Positions 1-48,736 of a stretch of DNA of 58,434 bases are shown here, piece after piece. The stretch spans positions 1-58,434 of the IMG/VR virus record IMGVR_UViG_3300035193_000026. One strand, 5' to 3'. Each line of letters begins with the position of its first letter. The first letter of the stretch is position 1. Origin of the DNA: a virus. The notes under the pieces are model-generated. The model saw nothing but the letters and a program-made list of their open reading frames with translations, did not search any database and was not told the origin of the DNA. A program made the translations under genes and the position numbers.

Positions 1-79
1 CTCATTTAGAGACTTTTTTCTGTGTATGAAAAAGGAATTTTAAATCAAAGGAAATCAAAATAATCAAAAAGGTATTGAA

Positions 80-1396
80 ATGATTATAGAAAATAGAAAG
101 GTCAAAGAATTAATTCCATATATAAAGAATATTAAAAAGCATCCCCCTAAGCAGGTTAATAAGATTGCTGAATCTATAAGGCAATTTGGTTTTAACATCC
201 CAATATTATTAACAAAGGAAAATGAGATAATTGCCGGTCATGGTCGGTTATTGGCTGCTAAAAAAATAAAACTTGAAGATGTTCCATGTATTTATTTGAA
301 TGATTTAACCCCTGAACAAATAAAAGCTTTTCGTATCGCTGATAATAAGGTCGCTGAGTCAGAATGGGAGGAAGGGTTTCTAAAGGAAGAATTAGAAGAT
401 TTATATGCGATGGACTATGATCTTGAATTTACAGGTTTTGATATTCCCGAATTTAAAGACATATTAGTGGAGATATTTCCACCTGAAATAAAACAAAGAG
501 ATTATGAAGGCACTGAGGATGATTGTTTTAGTGATGAAAAAGTAAAGCATGAGATATTATTACCAGAAGATGAATTAAAAATACCTTATTGGGAGTGGAT
601 GAACTCAATGGATGAAGTATATGTCCAGTTCTCGGGTGGTAAGGATAGTATGGCTTCACTGGCAATTTGTCTTGATAATTTACCTAAAGATAAAATAAAA
701 ATATTTCATAATGCGATACCTATGGACCCTCCTGGATTAACGGAATGGGTACAAGAATTTGCAAAAAGTCTTGATATAGAATTGATAATTCCTGGTAATG
801 TTATATCAGATGAGCAACTATTTAAGACACTTAGAAAGACAGGGCTTCCTTTAAATTTCGCGAAAAGATGGTGTTTAAGGGTTTGGAAAATTCTACCTAC
901 AAATAATTATATTAAAAAAAATGGCTTACATTTAAGATCTGATATAGTTTTTGTTGAGGGGCTTAGGCGTGAAGAAGGTGGAGTTAGGGCAACAACTGAT
1001 CCTAGAAGTTTAAGGAAAATTGATAATACTATGACAGTTAGAATGTCCAGACCTATTTTAGATATGACAGAAGATGAAGTTTTCAAAACAATAAAGGGAA
1101 AAGGTTGGAAAAGACATTGGGTTTATGATATAGGATTACCGAGATTGGGATGTATTTTTTGTTTTGCAACTAAAAGAAGAGACTGGCAGACATTAAGAGA
1201 AAATGCTCCAGAGATCTTTTTAAAATCGTTAAGAATTCTTGCTGAAGGAGCTTGTTCTAATAATGTTTCAGGTAGTGACGTTGTTTATTATTTGAGAAAA
1301 ATGTTAAGCTTAGATACGGTTGCAGGAGCCAGAAAAGATGACGGTCTCCCTCCCCGTAAACCTTGGACAGGAGACCGTAAAAGAACAGATGATTAA
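80..1396 (+). CDS. ParB-like N-terminal domain fused to a PAPS-reductase-like domain (IbrB-IbrA-like)
   Basis: This 438-residue protein has two recognisable parts. Residues about 1-110 resemble the ParB/Srx N-terminal fold, with the box IIAGHGRLLAAK (AGHGR at 52-56). Residues about 165-400 resemble the PP-loop ATPases of the PAPS reductase family, with FSGGKDS at 184-190 and a paired cysteine motif GCIFC near 356-360. In enterobacteria the two modules occur as separate proteins IbrB and IbrA, known as regulators of prophage-borne genes; here they are one chain. The biochemical role is unknown. A role in reading or chemically modifying DNA is inference only. The ATG follows AAAAAGG. The 3' end meets the convergent gene 1393-1719 with a 4-nt overlap. 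Domain calls are strong; function is open. Confidence 0.85.
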   Translation: MIIENRKVKELIPYIKNIKKHPPKQVNKIAESIRQFGFNIPILLTKENEIIAGHGRLLAAKKIKLEDVPCIYLNDLTPEQIKAFRIADNKVAESEWEEGFLKEELEDLYAMDYDLEFTGFDIPEFKDILVEIFPPEIKQRDYEGTEDDCFSDEKVKHEILLPEDELKIPYWEWMNSMDEVYVQFSGGKDSMASLAICLDNLPKDKIKIFHNAIPMDPPGLTEWVQEFAKSLDIELIIPGNVISDEQLFKTLRKTGLPLNFAKRWCLRVWKILPTNNYIKKNGLHLRSDIVFVEGLRREEGGVRATTDPRSLRKIDNTMTVRMSRPILDMTEDEVFKTIKGKGWKRHWVYDIGLPRLGCIFCFATKRRDWQTLRENAPEIFLKSLRILAEGACSNNVSGSDVVYYLRKMLSLDTVAGARKDDGLPPRKPWTGDRKRTDD

Positions 1397-1719
1397 TAAA
1401 CTTGATCTAAGAGGAAAAGGCTATTTGTTTTAGTGCGATATGAACTTTCAAAGAGGATTTTATCTATAATGCAAATAAAACAAATAGAATCAAGGCCATG
1501 TGTTTTTTTGAGGTACTTTTGTAAGCTTCGCGCCTGCCCTCTTGATTTATTGCACCATAAACCGCCTGGACCGTCCTTGCCTTTTTGTACTGGTTCGGCA
1601 GGATGATTCCATCGTTTGGGTTTATAGCTTATTATCTTACTATGTAAGAGGCCTGTACTTGTTAAATCGGGTAATAATACTACTTTATATCTGATTTTAT
1701 CCATAATTTTTTGAGGCAT
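1393..1719 (-). CDS. Hypothetical protein, 108 aa
   Basis: I do not recognise the family. The start is supported by AAGGAG seven nt upstream of the ATG on the minus strand. The protein is basic in the middle and contains single cysteines in WCNKS and ICFICI but no clear metal-binding pattern. It is the last gene of a leftward group (2454 to 1393) and converges on the ParB/PAPS-reductase fusion gene, which may suggest shared function but does not prove it. Confidence 0.6.
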   Translation of the reverse strand: MPQKIMDKIRYKVVLLPDLTSTGLLHSKIISYKPKRWNHPAEPVQKGKDGPGGLWCNKSRGQARSLQKYLKKTHGLDSICFICIIDKILFESSYRTKTNSLFLLDQVY

Positions 1720-1758: not shown

Positions 1759-1893
1759 TTATTTAGCAAGCTTTTCTTTAATGGCTTGCAAGATAAAGGC
1801 GTTGAACGATATCCCAAGATCAAAGACTTTGTGCATGATCTCAGCGTGAAGCTTTTTGGGTATCCTGATTGTTGTTGTTTTTTTGTCGTCCAT
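1759..1893 (-). CDS. Ribbon-helix-helix (Arc/CopG-like) mini-regulator, 44 aa
   Basis: A 44-codon frame preceded by GGAGGTAATT directly before the ATG. It starts with a run of threonines and TIRIPKKLHAEI, the typical beta-strand and first helix of Arc/CopG/MetJ proteins, followed by a second helix (SFNAFILQAIKEKL). Such proteins bind DNA as dimers and usually regulate their own promoter or neighbouring genes. Its leader is nearly duplicated upstream of the gene at 55192-55470, so both may be targets of one regulator. The assignment rests on motif and length only. Confidence 0.7.
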   Translation of the reverse strand: MDDKKTTTIRIPKKLHAEIMHKVFDLGISFNAFILQAIKEKLAK

Positions 1894-1975
1894 AATTACC
1901 TCCGATATTTAAAGTATAAATAAACTAAAACATCAATCAATACAGTGATTAAAGGTGTTGTTATTGACGTGGTTA
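1894..1975 (-). repeat. Leader/promoter block, duplicate of 55471-55553
   Basis: Reading leftward, this block carries GTCAATAACAACAC, an AT-rich stretch TTTTAGTTTATTTA and then CTTTAAATATCGGAGGTAATT before the RHH start. The block upstream of 55470 has the same elements in the same order with small indels. Both keep a TTGA element 17 nt before TTTAAA and end in an identical GGAGGTAATTATG. This is a duplicated promoter and ribosome-binding unit. Confidence 0.6.
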
Positions 1976-2230
1976 AACCTTTGCAAAATTAGACCAGCAA
2001 TAATCAACAATCTCTTTAGGCGCTTGAGTTGATGGAGTTGGAGCTGACCCCGACCAATAATTAGTATTGGGTAGACCTGCGGCTCTTATGGCTCTGGTAA
2101 AGCCAGCATTGCCAACTACGTCCCATCCTGTAGCCGGTCGTTTATTGCGGCAATCAGGGTCAGGATATGATTTATTGTTAAATTTAGATTTAAGTATATC
2201 AGCCATTTCGTTTATTGTGTATTTTTCCAT
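1973..2230 (-). CDS. Hypothetical protein, 85 aa
   Basis: The ATG is preceded by AAAGG with a nine-nt gap. The first residues (YTINEMADILKSKF) could form a helix; the middle is rich in Gly, Trp and Asn (TGWDVVGNAGFTRAIRAAGLP) and the C-terminus is a proline-rich linker followed by a short helix. I do not recognise the family. It belongs to the leftward group started by the promoter at 2489-2517. Confidence 0.6.
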   Translation of the reverse strand: MEKYTINEMADILKSKFNNKSYPDPDCRNKRPATGWDVVGNAGFTRAIRAAGLPNTNYWSGSAPTPSTQAPKEIVDYCWSNFAKV

Positions 2231-2595: not shown

Positions 2596-3087
2596 GTGGC
2601 GCGTGGCGGATATAGACCTGGAGCAGGGCGAAAACCGGGAAAATCGAAAAAATCAAAAGAAAAAGATGAATTAAAACGTATCAAAAAGGAAGAGGCTGAA
2701 AAAATTAAGGAGATTTTGTCTTATGGAATAAAAGCTAAAACCAAAATATATAATGATTATCTTAAGCGTGTGCAAAACGGTGATAAATTAACTGCAACAG
2801 AAATCAAAACAATGGATAAGATAGAGGATGAATTAAAATCTACTATCCTGGATAAATCATTAGAAAAAAAAGAAACTGAAACACCTCTTGATTTTATGCT
2901 GAGGATAATGAACGATCCTAATCAGGAACAATCTACTCGCGAACGTATGGCTGTGGCCGCTGCTCCATATATCCATAGTAGAAAAAGTGAGGGTATAGGA
3001 AAAAAAGAAGATATAGCCCAAAAAGCAGAGGATGTCGCAAAGACTAAGTTTGGAACATGGGAAAGTCCTTTGAAGGTGGTTAAGTGA
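2596..3087 (+). CDS. terS: Terminase small subunit
   Basis: A 163-residue protein beginning with RGGYRPGAGRKPG, an N-terminal signature common in phage small terminases, followed by a lysine-rich helix and a long helical region. The start is GTG, chosen because AAAGGAG sits five nt upstream; an ATG two bases earlier is out of frame. Small terminase binds the packaging site and recruits the large subunit. It overlaps the large terminase gene by GTGA (3084-3087), indicating translational coupling. This is the first gene of the late operon. Confidence 0.85.
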   Translation: MARGGYRPGAGRKPGKSKKSKEKDELKRIKKEEAEKIKEILSYGIKAKTKIYNDYLKRVQNGDKLTATEIKTMDKIEDELKSTILDKSLEKKETETPLDFMLRIMNDPNQEQSTRERMAVAAAPYIHSRKSEGIGKKEDIAQKAEDVAKTKFGTWESPLKVVK

Positions 3088-4805
3088 TAGAATGGAATAC
3101 ATCTTGCCCTGACTGGGAGGATCGAATAATAAAAGGTGAGAGTTTAATTCCTTTTGATCCGTTATTCCCCGAGAGTGCGAAAAAAGCATTGGAGATATTC
3201 TGCTCCCTTAGAATAGTTGATCAACCCGGAAGGCCTACTTTTGGTGAAATAAGCCCTAAATGGGTTTTGGATTTCGTTGCGGCTGTATTTGGGGCATACG
3301 ACCAAAATACTGGTATACAGCATATTAAAGAATATTTTTTGATGATTGGAAAGAAAAACGGTAAGAGCACGCTGGCTTCAGGGGTAATGATGACTGCCCT
3401 TATATTGAATTTAAGGGAATCTGCTGAATTTATAGTATTGGCTCCAACTGTAAAAGTTGCTAATAACTCTTTTCAGCCTGCATATGATATGTGTCGTAAA
3501 GATGTCGATGAAGATTTAAATAGTTTGTTGCACGATCAAGCACATTTAAAAAAAATAACAAACAGGAATACGAAAGCATGGCTTAATGTTGTAGCTGCGG
3601 ATAGTGGCACGGTAGCGGGAATAAAAGGCTCCGGCCATTTTATTGATGAGCTTTGGGAGTTCGGAAGCGGTAATAATGCTAAAAATATGATCAGGGAAGC
3701 TACTGGAGGTATGGCATCCAGGCCGGAGGGCTTTATAATATGGGCTACAACCCAGAGTGACAATCCTCCCGCCGGTATATTCAAGGAAAAATTAGACTAT
3801 GCCCGAAAAGTTAGAGATGGTAAAATAAAAGATAATCAATTTTTACCTGTCATATACGAGTTTCCTGAAAAGATTATTAAAGAGAGCAGACACTTAAATC
3901 CAAAAATGTTTTACGTAACTAATCCAAATATGGGCGTTTCAGTTGATGAAGGTTTTCTTCAAAGAGAATTTAAAAAGGCACAAGAAGCAGGCAAGGATTC
4001 AATGCAAGGCTTTCTTGCAAAACATCTTAACATAGAAATAGATGTATCACTAAAAACTCAGAACTGGGCGGGTGCTGAATTTTGGGAGGATGCTAAAAAT
4101 ATTGTGGACCTTGATATTATTTTGCAGGAATCTGAGGTTATTGAGATCGGGATTGATGGCGGGGGGTTGGACGATCTTTTAGGTTTTGCTGTTATTGGCA
4201 GGGATGCTTCAACCGGAATATGGCGGCTATGGGTGAGGGCATGGGCCAATCTAATAGCACTGGAAAGACGTAAATCTGAAGCCGATCGTTACAGGGATTT
4301 TGAAAAAGACGGGGATTTAATTATTGTTGAGGAAATAGGTGAAGATATTAAGCAGTTGGGTGAACTCGTAAGGAAATGCGAAAAATCCGGTTTACTTGAC
4401 CGGATAGGAGTTGATCAGGCTGGAATAGGAACTATTGTTGATGAGCTTGAAGCAGGAGACGAAAACGAAGAATATGCAATAGATCATGACAGGATAATTG
4501 GGATCCCGCAGGGTTGGCGCCTAAATGGTGCCATAAAGACAGCTGGAATAAAGATAGCCGGTAAAGGTATGGTTCATGGGGGGCAAAGGCTGATGTCCTG
4601 GTGTGTAGGAAATGCGAAGGAAGAACAGAAAGGTAACGCTATTGCAATAACTAAACAGACATGCGGAACGGGCAAAATAGATCCGTTTATGGCTATGCTT
4701 AATGCGGTTACTCTTATGGCCATGAACCCAATAGCAAAGGCAGTTAAATCAGCATATAATGATATGACACCCGAAGAAATAGAAGATAGCACATTAACTT
4801 TTTAA
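3084..4805 (+). CDS. terL: Terminase large subunit
   Basis: A 573-residue packaging motor and headful/cos nuclease. The ATPase domain has a Walker-A-like GKKNGKST at 89-96, a following PT motif and a Walker B HFIDELWE at 185-192. The C-terminal RNase-H-like nuclease shows IGIDGGGLDD near 356, IGVDQAG near 442 and a late DPF before a helix. Length and order fit the HK97/P27 type of large terminase. It acts at the portal vertex to pump DNA into proheads. GTG start, coupled to the small terminase. Confidence 0.95.
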   Translation: MIEWNTSCPDWEDRIIKGESLIPFDPLFPESAKKALEIFCSLRIVDQPGRPTFGEISPKWVLDFVAAVFGAYDQNTGIQHIKEYFLMIGKKNGKSTLASGVMMTALILNLRESAEFIVLAPTVKVANNSFQPAYDMCRKDVDEDLNSLLHDQAHLKKITNRNTKAWLNVVAADSGTVAGIKGSGHFIDELWEFGSGNNAKNMIREATGGMASRPEGFIIWATTQSDNPPAGIFKEKLDYARKVRDGKIKDNQFLPVIYEFPEKIIKESRHLNPKMFYVTNPNMGVSVDEGFLQREFKKAQEAGKDSMQGFLAKHLNIEIDVSLKTQNWAGAEFWEDAKNIVDLDIILQESEVIEIGIDGGGLDDLLGFAVIGRDASTGIWRLWVRAWANLIALERRKSEADRYRDFEKDGDLIIVEEIGEDIKQLGELVRKCEKSGLLDRIGVDQAGIGTIVDELEAGDENEEYAIDHDRIIGIPQGWRLNGAIKTAGIKIAGKGMVHGGQRLMSWCVGNAKEEQKGNAIAITKQTCGTGKIDPFMAMLNAVTLMAMNPIAKAVKSAYNDMTPEEIEDSTLTF

Positions 4806-33523: not shown

Positions 33524-34116
33524 TTTAACTTCTCAGGAATAAAATCTTTTATGAAATCCACAAGATTTCTTATGCCTGATTCTAAATCGCTGACCATATC
33601 CGGGTATCGATACATCTTAACTGAAGATATATTGTCTATTGTGATAATGCCCTTTTTATCTTTGGCTGAATAAATATAATATTCAAAGGTATCTGCATTG
33701 AAAATATCCAGATACGCTCTCCATTGGTAACTATCAAAGTAAGTATCAATATTCTCCCTGAAAGTTAGCTTGTGGTCTTTCACTGTATTACCTGTTATTC
33801 CATCACATCCGCCAGTTAAAACAATATCTAATCCATCAACATTATAGGTCTTATTTGCACGGATTTCCCTTATCTGTGGCAAGTTGATTTCAGCCTCACA
33901 ATCCACTTTGAATTTAAATCCTGAATGTTCTACGGTATCTATTGAATCAGGCGGATTTTCAAGAATGGAATGCCATGCTGTACCCATAGCCATTTTATCG
34001 TTGGGAGCTTCGGTTCTTAATATTCTTGATCGCATATCTTCGACTGACATGTTATCAAGTTTATTATACCATATCAGGCTATCAAGGTCGGTTACGTGTA
34101 GAATTAGTTTATTCAT
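33520..34116 (-). CDS. PD-(D/E)XK exonuclease-like protein, 198 aa
   Basis: The start at 34116 is chosen for GGAGGG six nt upstream; the longer frame overlaps the HNH gene. Motifs include GTAWHSILE, then GGCDGITGNTVKDHKLT giving the D...DxK metal and catalytic set of RecB/Cas4-like nucleases, and YQWRAYL. Together with the ATPase and NinB-like protein it forms a recombination/repair cluster. It probably degrades DNA ends. Confidence 0.8.
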   Translation of the reverse strand: MNKLILHVTDLDSLIWYNKLDNMSVEDMRSRILRTEAPNDKMAMGTAWHSILENPPDSIDTVEHSGFKFKVDCEAEINLPQIREIRANKTYNVDGLDIVLTGGCDGITGNTVKDHKLTFRENIDTYFDSYQWRAYLDIFNADTFEYYIYSAKDKKGIITIDNISSVKMYRYPDMVSDLESGIRNLVDFIKDFIPEKLN

Positions 34117-34667
34117 AAGCCCTCCGATATACATATCCAACTCTTTCCGCTCACTATGTCGGCACTTTGCGTCCAAGATATTTCGAACCTACGCGATATT
34201 TCAGCCCTGCTCATGCCTCCGTTATAGAGATGCCGTATCATTAAAATATCTTTACTGGATAACTTGGCTCTTGGATTTTTTTCACCGTGCAAATTAGGTT
34301 TCTTGCGCAATCCAGTGCTATAAGCGTGGATGTTGTTCTCTGAAGAAGTAACCCATTCAAGGTTGCCTATATCATTAACGGATTTGTCTCCGTCCTTGTG
34401 GTTACACTCATGTCGTGGAGATGGCTTAGGGGGGCCGAAATGCTCAAGAACTAAGGTATGAATGTACTTCTGGTGGACAGCACCGTCTTTACATAGCGGG
34501 ACAAATAGATATCCATTCCCGTTGTCCTGCTGTTTCATAATTCGTCCAGCCTTGAAATAAGATCCGTATTGCCTCCGATGGATGGTTCTTGAGATGGACC
34601 TAACTTGTCCTGCACTAGAAACTTCATAGCACGGAAATCCGTATATGCTTTTCCACTCTTCTTTCAT
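34113..34667 (-). CDS. HNH homing endonuclease with NUMOD4 domain, 184 aa
   Basis: The start EEWKSIYGFPCYEVSSAGQVRS is a NUMOD4 DNA-binding motif; the HNH core is HECNHKDGDKSVNDIGNLEWV. A C-terminal helix-turn-helix (ILMIRHLYNGGMSRAEISRRF) completes the usual architecture. It overlaps both neighbours by 4 nt, as if inserted neatly between the ATPase and nuclease genes. Such enzymes cut sites lacking the insertion and spread themselves. Confidence 0.9.
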   Translation of the reverse strand: MKEEWKSIYGFPCYEVSSAGQVRSISRTIHRRQYGSYFKAGRIMKQQDNGNGYLFVPLCKDGAVHQKYIHTLVLEHFGPPKPSPRHECNHKDGDKSVNDIGNLEWVTSSENNIHAYSTGLRKKPNLHGEKNPRAKLSSKDILMIRHLYNGGMSRAEISRRFEISWTQSADIVSGKSWICISEGL

Positions 34668-46743: not shown

Positions 46744-47061
46744 ACGACAGATTATTCAGAAAGATTAAAGGACCCACGCTGGCAAAAGAAGCGTTGTTTG
46801 ATTATGTATCGAGATGGATATGTATGTCAAAATTGTGGAGATGAAACAATTTTGTTATGTGTTCATCATTTAGCTTATTATCCTGGCAGGGACCCATGGG
46901 ATTATGATGACGATGAATTAGTAACATGGTGTATCGATTGCCATAATGGGAAACATAATGAAATGAATTTTCAAGAAGCTACTGAAAAAATAATCGAAAA
47001 ACCTTTTACTACTGACCGAAGCCTTTTCGTTGACAGGATGATTATTAAATATGGAATCTAA
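46744..47061 (+). CDS. HNH endonuclease-like protein, probable ACG start, 105 aa
   Basis: The usual start of this family (TDYSERLKDPRWQKK) is encoded upstream of the first ATG, but no ATG, GTG or TTG precedes it in frame after the TGA at 46732-46734. GAGGT lies about six nt before ACG 46744, which fits initiation there. The nuclease motif is MYRDGYVCQNCGDET, CVHHLAYYP and CIDCHNGKH. If ACG fails, a shorter form starts at 46798 or 46804. Confidence 0.6.
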   Translation, partial: TTDYSERLKDPRWQKKRCLIMYRDGYVCQNCGDETILLCVHHLAYYPGRDPWDYDDDELVTWCIDCHNGKHNEMNFQEATEKIIEKPFTTDRSLFVDRMIIKYGI

Positions 47062-48736
47062 AATTAACATGCTTGAATATGCTTTAAGATACAAGAATGA
47101 GTTCGGATTTTCTGTTATTCCTGTGAAAGGTAAATCTGGTCATTTAGTACAATGGAGTGAATATCAACATGAAAAGCCATCTGAAGATCAAATTAAAGAA
47201 TGGTGGAATAAATGGCCTGATTCTAATATTGGAATAATAACAGGTGCAATATCGGGTATAACGGTTATTGATATAGATTCGTATAAGCTTAGTGATGAAG
47301 ATTTTGAAGCAGTTAATAAAGCCTTTCCTGATGATTTTGCAACGGCAACAGCATTATCCGGTTCTGGTGGGCAGCATAGGTATTTTGCTTATGATCCAGA
47401 CGTTCCGACTCGAAATGATATAATGAAGGGAGTAGATATTAAAAATGATGGAGGAGTAATCATTGCCCCTCCATCTAAAAATGAAAATGGAACTTATCAA
47501 TGGCTTAAATCAAAAAAAATATCAGTGGTTCCACCTCGCGCCTTTCCAGATTTTTATAAAGAAAGCATTAATAATAGTATTAATTCATTATCTTTATATA
47601 TAGGTGCGCAAGAATCTAACTCACATGAACTAACAAACCTAACAAAAACTAACATTTATTATAAGCCAGGCCGAAGGGATGATGATTTATTTCATGCAGC
47701 AAATTGCCTGATTAAAGGTGGGTCTGACCCTCAGTTTGCTAGACAAACCCTTGAATTAATTGCTAATAATCTTGGAAAAGAATTTACCCCAAAGGTTGTA
47801 AATGATAAAATAAACAGCGTTTTAAAGAGAGTTGGACGCCAAGATATAAATATTGCTGATGAATTCCGGACGTGGGTTGAACTAACAGAAGGTAACTTTA
47901 ACCTAACACAATGCTCACATGAACTAACATTAACTAACAAAAACCAAAAACAAGCTTTATATATGGCTTGTAAGCGTCTTTGCGATGAGGGAATAATTGA
48001 AAAATATGGAGATAAAAGAGGTGTTTATAGGAGAGTAGAACAAACTGTATATGAAGATTGGATAAATGCCGATTATGATGCAATTAAATTAAACCTCCCA
48101 TTTGGCTTAGGTCAATATGTAGATATATTTCCCGGTGATCTCATTGTTATAGCTGGAGTTAAAAATGCTGGCAAAACTGCGTTTGCTTTAAACTTTATAA
48201 AATTGAATATGAATGAATGGGATAGTTATTATCATTCTTCAGAATTGGTAAAACAGACGTTTAAGTTAAGGGTATCTAAGGATGAGGACAATAATCTTCA
48301 GGATTGGTCTAAAGTAAAAATGACTCAAGGATTAAATATGTCAAATGCGAAGGACAGAGTTGTGAAAGATGCATTAAATGTATTTGATTATATAGAGGGT
48401 GACGATGGTGAATTTTATAAAATTCCGGCAGCAATGGCTAGAATACATAGGGCGTTGGGTGATGGAATAGGGGTTGTATGTTTACAAAAACCATCTACTA
48501 GAGATTTTGCCAGAGGAGGCGAAGGGACCAAAGATAAAGCTGCCCTTTATTTAACCATTGATAAAGAATATCCATATCATGTTTGCAGAGTGAACGAGTG
48601 TAAAACATTTAAGGAAAAAGTAGGCAATCCAACAGGTTATATAATCAGATATAAGGTAAAGGATGGTATAAATTTATATTCAGAAGGTGTTTTAATGCCT
48701 GAGATTGATAAAAAATATCAAGGATTAGTGAAATGA
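47051..48736 (+). CDS. Primase-polymerase fused to a RecA-fold helicase-like domain, 561 aa
   Basis: Residues about 10-190 resemble bifunctional primase-polymerases: GFSVIPVKGKSGHLVQWSEY, GIITGAISGITVIDIDSYKL, SGSGGQHRYFAY and DIKNDGGVIIAPPS. Residues about 270-345 look like a winged helix. The C-terminal RecA-like part has Walker A AGVKNAGKTAF near 368-378. It should prime and possibly unwind phage DNA at replication forks. The start ATG overlaps the HNH gene by 11 nt. Confidence 0.85.
   Translation: MESKINMLEYALRYKNEFGFSVIPVKGKSGHLVQWSEYQHEKPSEDQIKEWWNKWPDSNIGIITGAISGITVIDIDSYKLSDEDFEAVNKAFPDDFATATALSGSGGQHRYFAYDPDVPTRNDIMKGVDIKNDGGVIIAPPSKNENGTYQWLKSKKISVVPPRAFPDFYKESINNSINSLSLYIGAQESNSHELTNLTKTNIYYKPGRRDDDLFHAANCLIKGGSDPQFARQTLELIANNLGKEFTPKVVNDKINSVLKRVGRQDINIADEFRTWVELTEGNFNLTQCSHELTLTNKNQKQALYMACKRLCDEGIIEKYGDKRGVYRRVEQTVYEDWINADYDAIKLNLPFGLGQYVDIFPGDLIVIAGVKNAGKTAFALNFIKLNMNEWDSYYHSSELVKQTFKLRVSKDEDNNLQDWSKVKMTQGLNMSNAKDRVVKDALNVFDYIEGDDGEFYKIPAAMARIHRALGDGIGVVCLQKPSTRDFARGGEGTKDKAALYLTIDKEYPYHVCRVNECKTFKEKVGNPTGYIIRYKVKDGINLYSEGVLMPEIDKKYQGLVK

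Follow-up and report, generated by a model that had tools for sequence, protein, structure and literature searches.

A gene near one end of a 58,434-nucleotide tailed-phage DNA (IMG/VR record IMGVR_UViG_3300035193_000026, analysed whole and called the window below) joins a ParB N-terminal (ParB_N) domain to a PAPS-reductase-like PP-loop domain in one chain. On balance, we favour its product being a phage DNA-modification enzyme in which a methyltransferase was swapped for an ATP-pyrophosphatase of PP-loop type with the APS/PAPS-reductase fold. The reading frame encodes 438 amino acids from an ATG start, with no internal stops.

66-72, plus strand: AAAAAGG, likely ribosome-binding site 7 nt 5' of the ATG (sequence)
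80-1396, plus strand: fused gene, ParB_N and PAPS-reductase-like PP-loop domain (profile searches, predicted structure)
80-469, plus strand: ParB_N/CTPase-type domain and short helices, residues 1-130 (phrog_620, E = 1.7e-48; VIA-align Z 15 to ParB/Noc)
236-247, plus strand: ParB box GHGR, residues 53-56 (motif)
470-553, plus strand: linker, residues 131-158, of which the model shows 137-154 as disordered (pLDDT < 50)
554-1309, plus strand: APS/PAPS-reductase-fold PP-loop domain, about residues 159-410 (PF01507, E = 6.5e-16; VIA-align Z 16.2 to 7lhs/7lhr)
629-649, plus strand: PP-loop FSGGKDS, residues 184-190 (FSGG[KR]DS in nine of nine fused proteins)
872-874, plus strand: Cys265 in RWC, a candidate ligand of an Fe-S cluster (present in all 25 aligned PAPS-like domains, fused and stand-alone)
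1151-1162, plus strand: CIFC, residues 358-361, with Cys358 and Cys361 as candidate Fe-S ligands (invariant in 25 of 25)

Profile searches matched each half of this intact frame, which confirms the single-chain fusion of ParB-like and PAPS-reductase-like domains proposed in the initial annotation. The Pfam family PAPS_reduct covers residues 180-361 with a score above its cut-off, and phrog_424 matches the same half (E = 3.6e-33). The ParB half, with its AGHGR box at residues 52-56, is matched by the PHROG ParB families phrog_620 and phrog_498 (E = 4.3e-44); in Pfam, ParB_N reaches E = 1.5e-4, under the cut-off.

An AlphaFold model, computed from an alignment of the window protein and viral loci, has a mean pLDDT of 86.5 and a pTM of 0.62, a value at which we do not rely on the mutual placement of the two halves. 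With VIA-align, residues 1-94 superpose on ParB/Noc CTPase domains (Z about 15, rmsd 1.5-2.0, about 91 residues) and residues 159-370 on APS/PAPS reductases (Z 16.2 for 7lhs, rmsd 2.9, 192 residues); the next matches of the latter half are FAD synthase, ATP sulfurylase, GMP synthetase and the [4Fe-4S] thiolase TtuA. Of the features of a ParB partition protein, the ParB N fold and the GxxR box are present. Partition proteins also have a parS-binding HTH, a dimerisation domain and a ParA partner; after the N domain the model has short helices only, at residues 98-128. Since residues 137-154 are disordered in the model, a flexible linker appears to join the two halves.

Downstream, the fused gene is followed by three small reading frames and the terminase genes:

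1393-1719, minus strand: small ORF between the fused gene and terS
1759-1893, minus strand: RHH-like ORF (by eye), 44 amino acids, between the fused gene and terS
1973-2230, minus strand: small ORF between the fused gene and terS
2596-3087, plus strand: terminase small subunit, terS (phrog_641, E = 6.7e-15)
3084-4805, plus strand: terminase large subunit, terL (phrog_9, E = 1.8e-118)

The small ORFs had been taken, with the RHH regulator, as partners of the fused gene in an accessory cassette. They do exist, those at 1393-1719 and 1973-2230 without a match in Pfam, PHROGs or PADLOC, but because they lie on the opposite strand, convergent with the fused gene, the pairing is unsupported and a common operon is ruled out. 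Elsewhere in the window, positions 47051-48736 encode a primase-polymerase of the Prim-Pol type whose C-terminal part may be helicase-like (DnaB_C, under the cut-off), and a NUMOD4-HNH homing-type endonuclease (34113-34667, minus strand) adjoins a Sak4-like gene, with a NinB-like gene nearby.

The same architecture occurs in eight further viral proteins, seven on IMG/VR contigs and one in an archaeal virus, nine with that of the window (identities are to the window protein):

L003, 3820-5121: fused relative, 51% identity
L086, 3850-5112: fused relative, 34% identity
L087, 4194-5501: fused relative, 34% identity
L088, 883-2103: fused relative, 33% identity
L179, L171 and L180: fused relatives, 22, 23 and 18% identity, respectively
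Methanoculleus virus Blf4/L4768, gp05, L001:1242-2486 (NC_074642.1): fused relative, 25% identity

The domain make-up of L003, L086, L087, L088 and gp05 was confirmed with PHROGs; for L171, L179 and L180, the assignment comes from BLASTP matches to the ParB set together with the PP-loop motif. Since nine separate viral records carry the fusion, an assembly artefact is ruled out. In all nine, terL lies within about 4 kb of the fused gene. DNA-pattern scans linking the ParB box to the PP-loop returned one true fused relative, L003; the candidates L004-L006 from these scans were chance matches or stand-alone genes. Peptide patterns yielded no relatives of the single window sequence in viral contigs, and two scans of a genome collection found no relative, so that a frequency in prophages of sequenced hosts is not inferable from them.

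Residues of catalytic type are conserved. F184-S-G-G-x-D-S, C265, G294, P325, R355, C358 and C361 are invariant in the nine fused proteins, and the 25-sequence alignment, which adds 16 stand-alone phage PAPS-like domains, shows no exception for the three cysteines. Conservation of the motifs named in the initial annotation thus holds for the PP-loop and the cysteines, but not for AGHGR, the ParB boxes reading GHGR, GHGR, GHQR, GNQR, GEAR, GHTT, GHGR, GHQR and GHQR; a G[HNE]xR form with the final arginine is retained in eight of them. The PAPS halves of the window, L003, L086, L087 and L088 form one clade (support 99/98) and those of Blf4, L171 and L180 another (100/97). A single origin of the nine fusions is a candidate that the AU test does not reject (p = 0.375).

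Like the window gene, gp05 of Blf4/L4768 lies upstream of terL and retains the PP-loop and the three cysteines; unlike it, gp05 has the ParB box GHTT and belongs to the second subgroup (with L171 and L180), in which CxxC reads CWCC. It is annotated as a 'DNA modification methylase', yet its catalytic half is PAPS-reductase-like. A radical-SAM-like ORF (L180:419-1150, NGCPYGCRYCY) directly precedes the fusion gene in L180. In L011, the gene at 3048-4205, which follows a ParB_N gene, encodes an ABC-ATPase-like N-terminus and has a weak match to GNAT (phrog_11143). The ORF at 3153-4319 of L171 looks similar and likewise follows a ParB gene; behind it lie a formyltransferase-like ORF and then the ParB-PAPS fusion.

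Judged from its profile matches, the ParB half is a member of a phage ParB_N family typically fused to DNA methyltransferases. Both phrog_498 ('DNA methyltransferase', 633 positions) and the PADLOC profile MTase_II match it by their N-terminal parts, the latter over residues 1-143, and no methyltransferase match was found in the C-terminal half of the window protein with Pfam or PHROGs. The ParB_N fusions to N4/N6-methyltransferases represented by these profiles share with the window protein the N-terminal ParB family, a length of about 400-450 residues and a C-terminal catalytic module; where they have a DPPY methyltransferase, it has the PP-loop/CxxC domain instead. Among 80 viral ParB_N sequences, most with a GHxR box, 43 are methyltransferase fusions (assigned by the motif PP[YFW]), 28 stand alone and six are PAPS fusions. 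Partner types interleave on the ParB tree (24 changes against a minimum of three), so the partner appears to have been swapped often; the tree has long branches and its resolution is too poor to place the branch on which the fusion arose.

Stand-alone ParB genes of this family are directly followed by:

L021, L057, L064: C5-cytosine methylase
L069: N4/N6 methylase
L034, L060, L079: TET-associated glycosyltransferase (TAGT); also L077, under the cut-off
L062, L073: queuine-TGT-like gene
L078: Mom
L070, L081: radical SAM gene
L026: gene with a weak 5-hmdU-kinase match
L020, L028, L063: PAPS_reduct-type gene

At loci chosen by similarity to the window ParB, a canonical DNA-modification family lies directly downstream in 11 of 21 cases, against one of 60 upstream genes (Fisher p = 3e-7), with two of the 11 seen with PHROGs only and the upstream control made with Pfam; the single upstream gene is a generic methyltransferase. 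In an annotated Psychrobacter phage (L111), a ParB gene of this kind is immediately followed by Mom, with terS behind. In one locus (L020:1880-5217), a ParB and a CxxC PAPS-like gene, here separate, precede a ParB-methyltransferase fusion. The variety of modifiers that follow stand-alone ParB_N (TAGT, TGT-like, Mom, C5-methyltransferase) suggests a general accessory role and could be mined for new modifications.

ParBc proteins have been described next to phage CmoX cytosine modifiers (cytosine carboxymethyltransferases) and as often fused to DNA methyltransferases, with a function given as unknown (2025, PMC12783734). The association with phage DNA modifiers is therefore partly known already, and a PAPS-reductase-fold partner in the same chain extends it; in the literature searched we found no description of such a single-chain enzyme. 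Because this ParB family usually partners phage DNA-modification enzymes, a reader or loader coupled to a modifier and acting on DNA, as first suggested for this gene, is the best inference.

Descent of the two halves from IbrB and IbrA, the pair named for comparison in the initial annotation, is not supported. As reference we used an E. coli plasmid pair (L117), annotated as a PAPS reductase and a ParB N-terminal protein and taken to be IbrA/IbrB-type from gene order and family. Such pairs (phrog_2302/phrog_2159) resemble the window gene in placing a PAPS-reductase-like and a ParB-like protein on phage or plasmid DNA, but they are separate genes with a ParB of another lineage, and CxxC is absent from all four IbrA-type proteins that were examined (from the E. 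coli plasmid L117 and from L028, L063 and L121). Against the IbrB-type protein of L117 the window ParB half scores E = 0.7, whereas the additional ParB encoded upstream in phage IbrAB-like loci gives E = 1e-35 to 1e-41. Similarity of the PAPS half to the IbrA-type protein is confined to the surroundings of the PP-loop (E = 0.02); we therefore regard the lineages as different. An hhalign comparison with the E. coli pair covered only 68 columns. The phage versions examined are three-gene cassettes with overlapping or abutting ends (L063:6001-8182; L028:4773-7348; L121:4592-6891), consisting of a phrog_620-type ParB, kin of the window ParB half, an IbrA-type PAPS gene and an IbrB-type ParB; terminase-like genes follow in L063 and L121.

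These systems bear on an alternative in which ParB would be an NTP-regulated DNase or nickase, controlled or activated by the PP-loop domain, and the protein would act against DNA of the host or of competitors, or in host gene regulation, leaving no lasting modification. Nicking or NTPase activity is described for isolated ParB domains, one of them in fusion with an adenine methylase (PMC5512222), and IbrA-type PAPS genes adjoin ParB genes in many phage loci. However, the window halves fall outside the IbrB and IbrA lineages, their ParB family accompanies modification enzymes, and a separate nuclease domain is absent; we consider such a conflict factor unlikely. A role in sulphur assimilation, as an auxiliary metabolic PAPS/APS reductase, is the common annotation of such phage genes and agrees with the Pfam match (E = 6.5e-16) and with the best solved folds. 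CysH-type PAPS/APS reductases carry a C-terminal catalytic cysteine in an ECGLH-like motif. Among the fused proteins no cysteine C-terminal to C361 is conserved as a candidate for it (Cys392 is not), and a canonical reductase was rejected although the fold fits; the ParB domain fused in front and the terminase-edge position also argue against a metabolic role, which we find very improbable.

A canonical Dnd or Ssp protein was also rejected. The DndC profile TIGR03183 scores 20 bits against an NCBIfam cut-off of 290, and searches of the available records, several of them fragments, found no cysteine desulfurase, DndB, DndD or DndE, the DndE search having no positive control; IscS may be supplied by the host. 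SspD (E = 2e-14) and BrxP (E = 2e-17) matched with profiles that have no curated cut-offs. Sulphur as the added atom is favoured by the fold matches to APS reductase and TtuA and, less strongly, by the profile hits to SspD and DndC. These phosphorothioation proteins do share the PP-loop, the cysteine cluster and the fold with the window protein, and a ParB-superfamily partner, DndB, exists; in the window, by contrast, one chain includes the ParB as well. For DndC, a 4Fe-4S centre with three cysteine ligands has been described (PMC10853773). With its three cysteines in a PP-loop fold, the window protein recalls DndC and also TtuA.

The [4Fe-4S] tRNA thiolases TtuA and TtcA share the PP-loop fold and a likely three-cysteine cluster with the window protein, which differs in its ParB fusion and phage terminase-edge context; the cysteine layout of TtcA differs from that of the PAPS half. 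A TtcA/TtuA-like sulfurtransferase acting on RNA (tRNA), with ParB as an accessory NTPase, would accord with the fold matches to TtuA, TilS and GMP synthetase, and TGT-like and radical-SAM neighbours are found in RNA modification too. Yet ParB is by its fold a module for DNA and CTP, the gene sits at the terminase edge, and most neighbours and fusions are DNA-specific (methyltransferases, Mom, TAGT), so that tRNA modification seems improbable.

Neither domain depends strictly on the other as partner: the CxxC PAPS-like gene stands alone in 22 loci (L089-L110), none of which has such a ParB within the fetched flanks. For this reason, and because the steps of the mechanism are inferred, we place DNA modification just on the probable side and sulphur as the added atom somewhat below even.

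More tentatively still, we propose a single-chain, ParB-loaded DNA sulphurtransferase that would borrow the host cysteine desulfurase and mark the phage genome just before packaging. From its position at the terminase edge, the gene may be expressed near packaging time. The ParB_N domain, of CTPase/NTPase-type fold in the model, would load on or scan DNA, and the flexible linker would let it bring the catalytic domain there. The PP-loop domain, with the fold and motif described above, could then adenylate a DNA group with ATP. A putative [4Fe-4S] cluster on the triad Cys265, Cys358 and Cys361 would pass sulphur from the desulfurase to the activated group, and the product would be thiolated DNA, phosphorothioate or thio-base, resistant to host nucleases.

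That the same ParB is joined to an enzyme of PP-loop/Fe-S type points to a phage DNA modification not yet described, in which sulphur may be involved. With the whole system in one gene, the contribution of ParB is testable by domain removal. The fusion also suggests that the names 'PAPS reductase' and 'DNA modification methylase' are wrong for some of the phage genes that now bear them.
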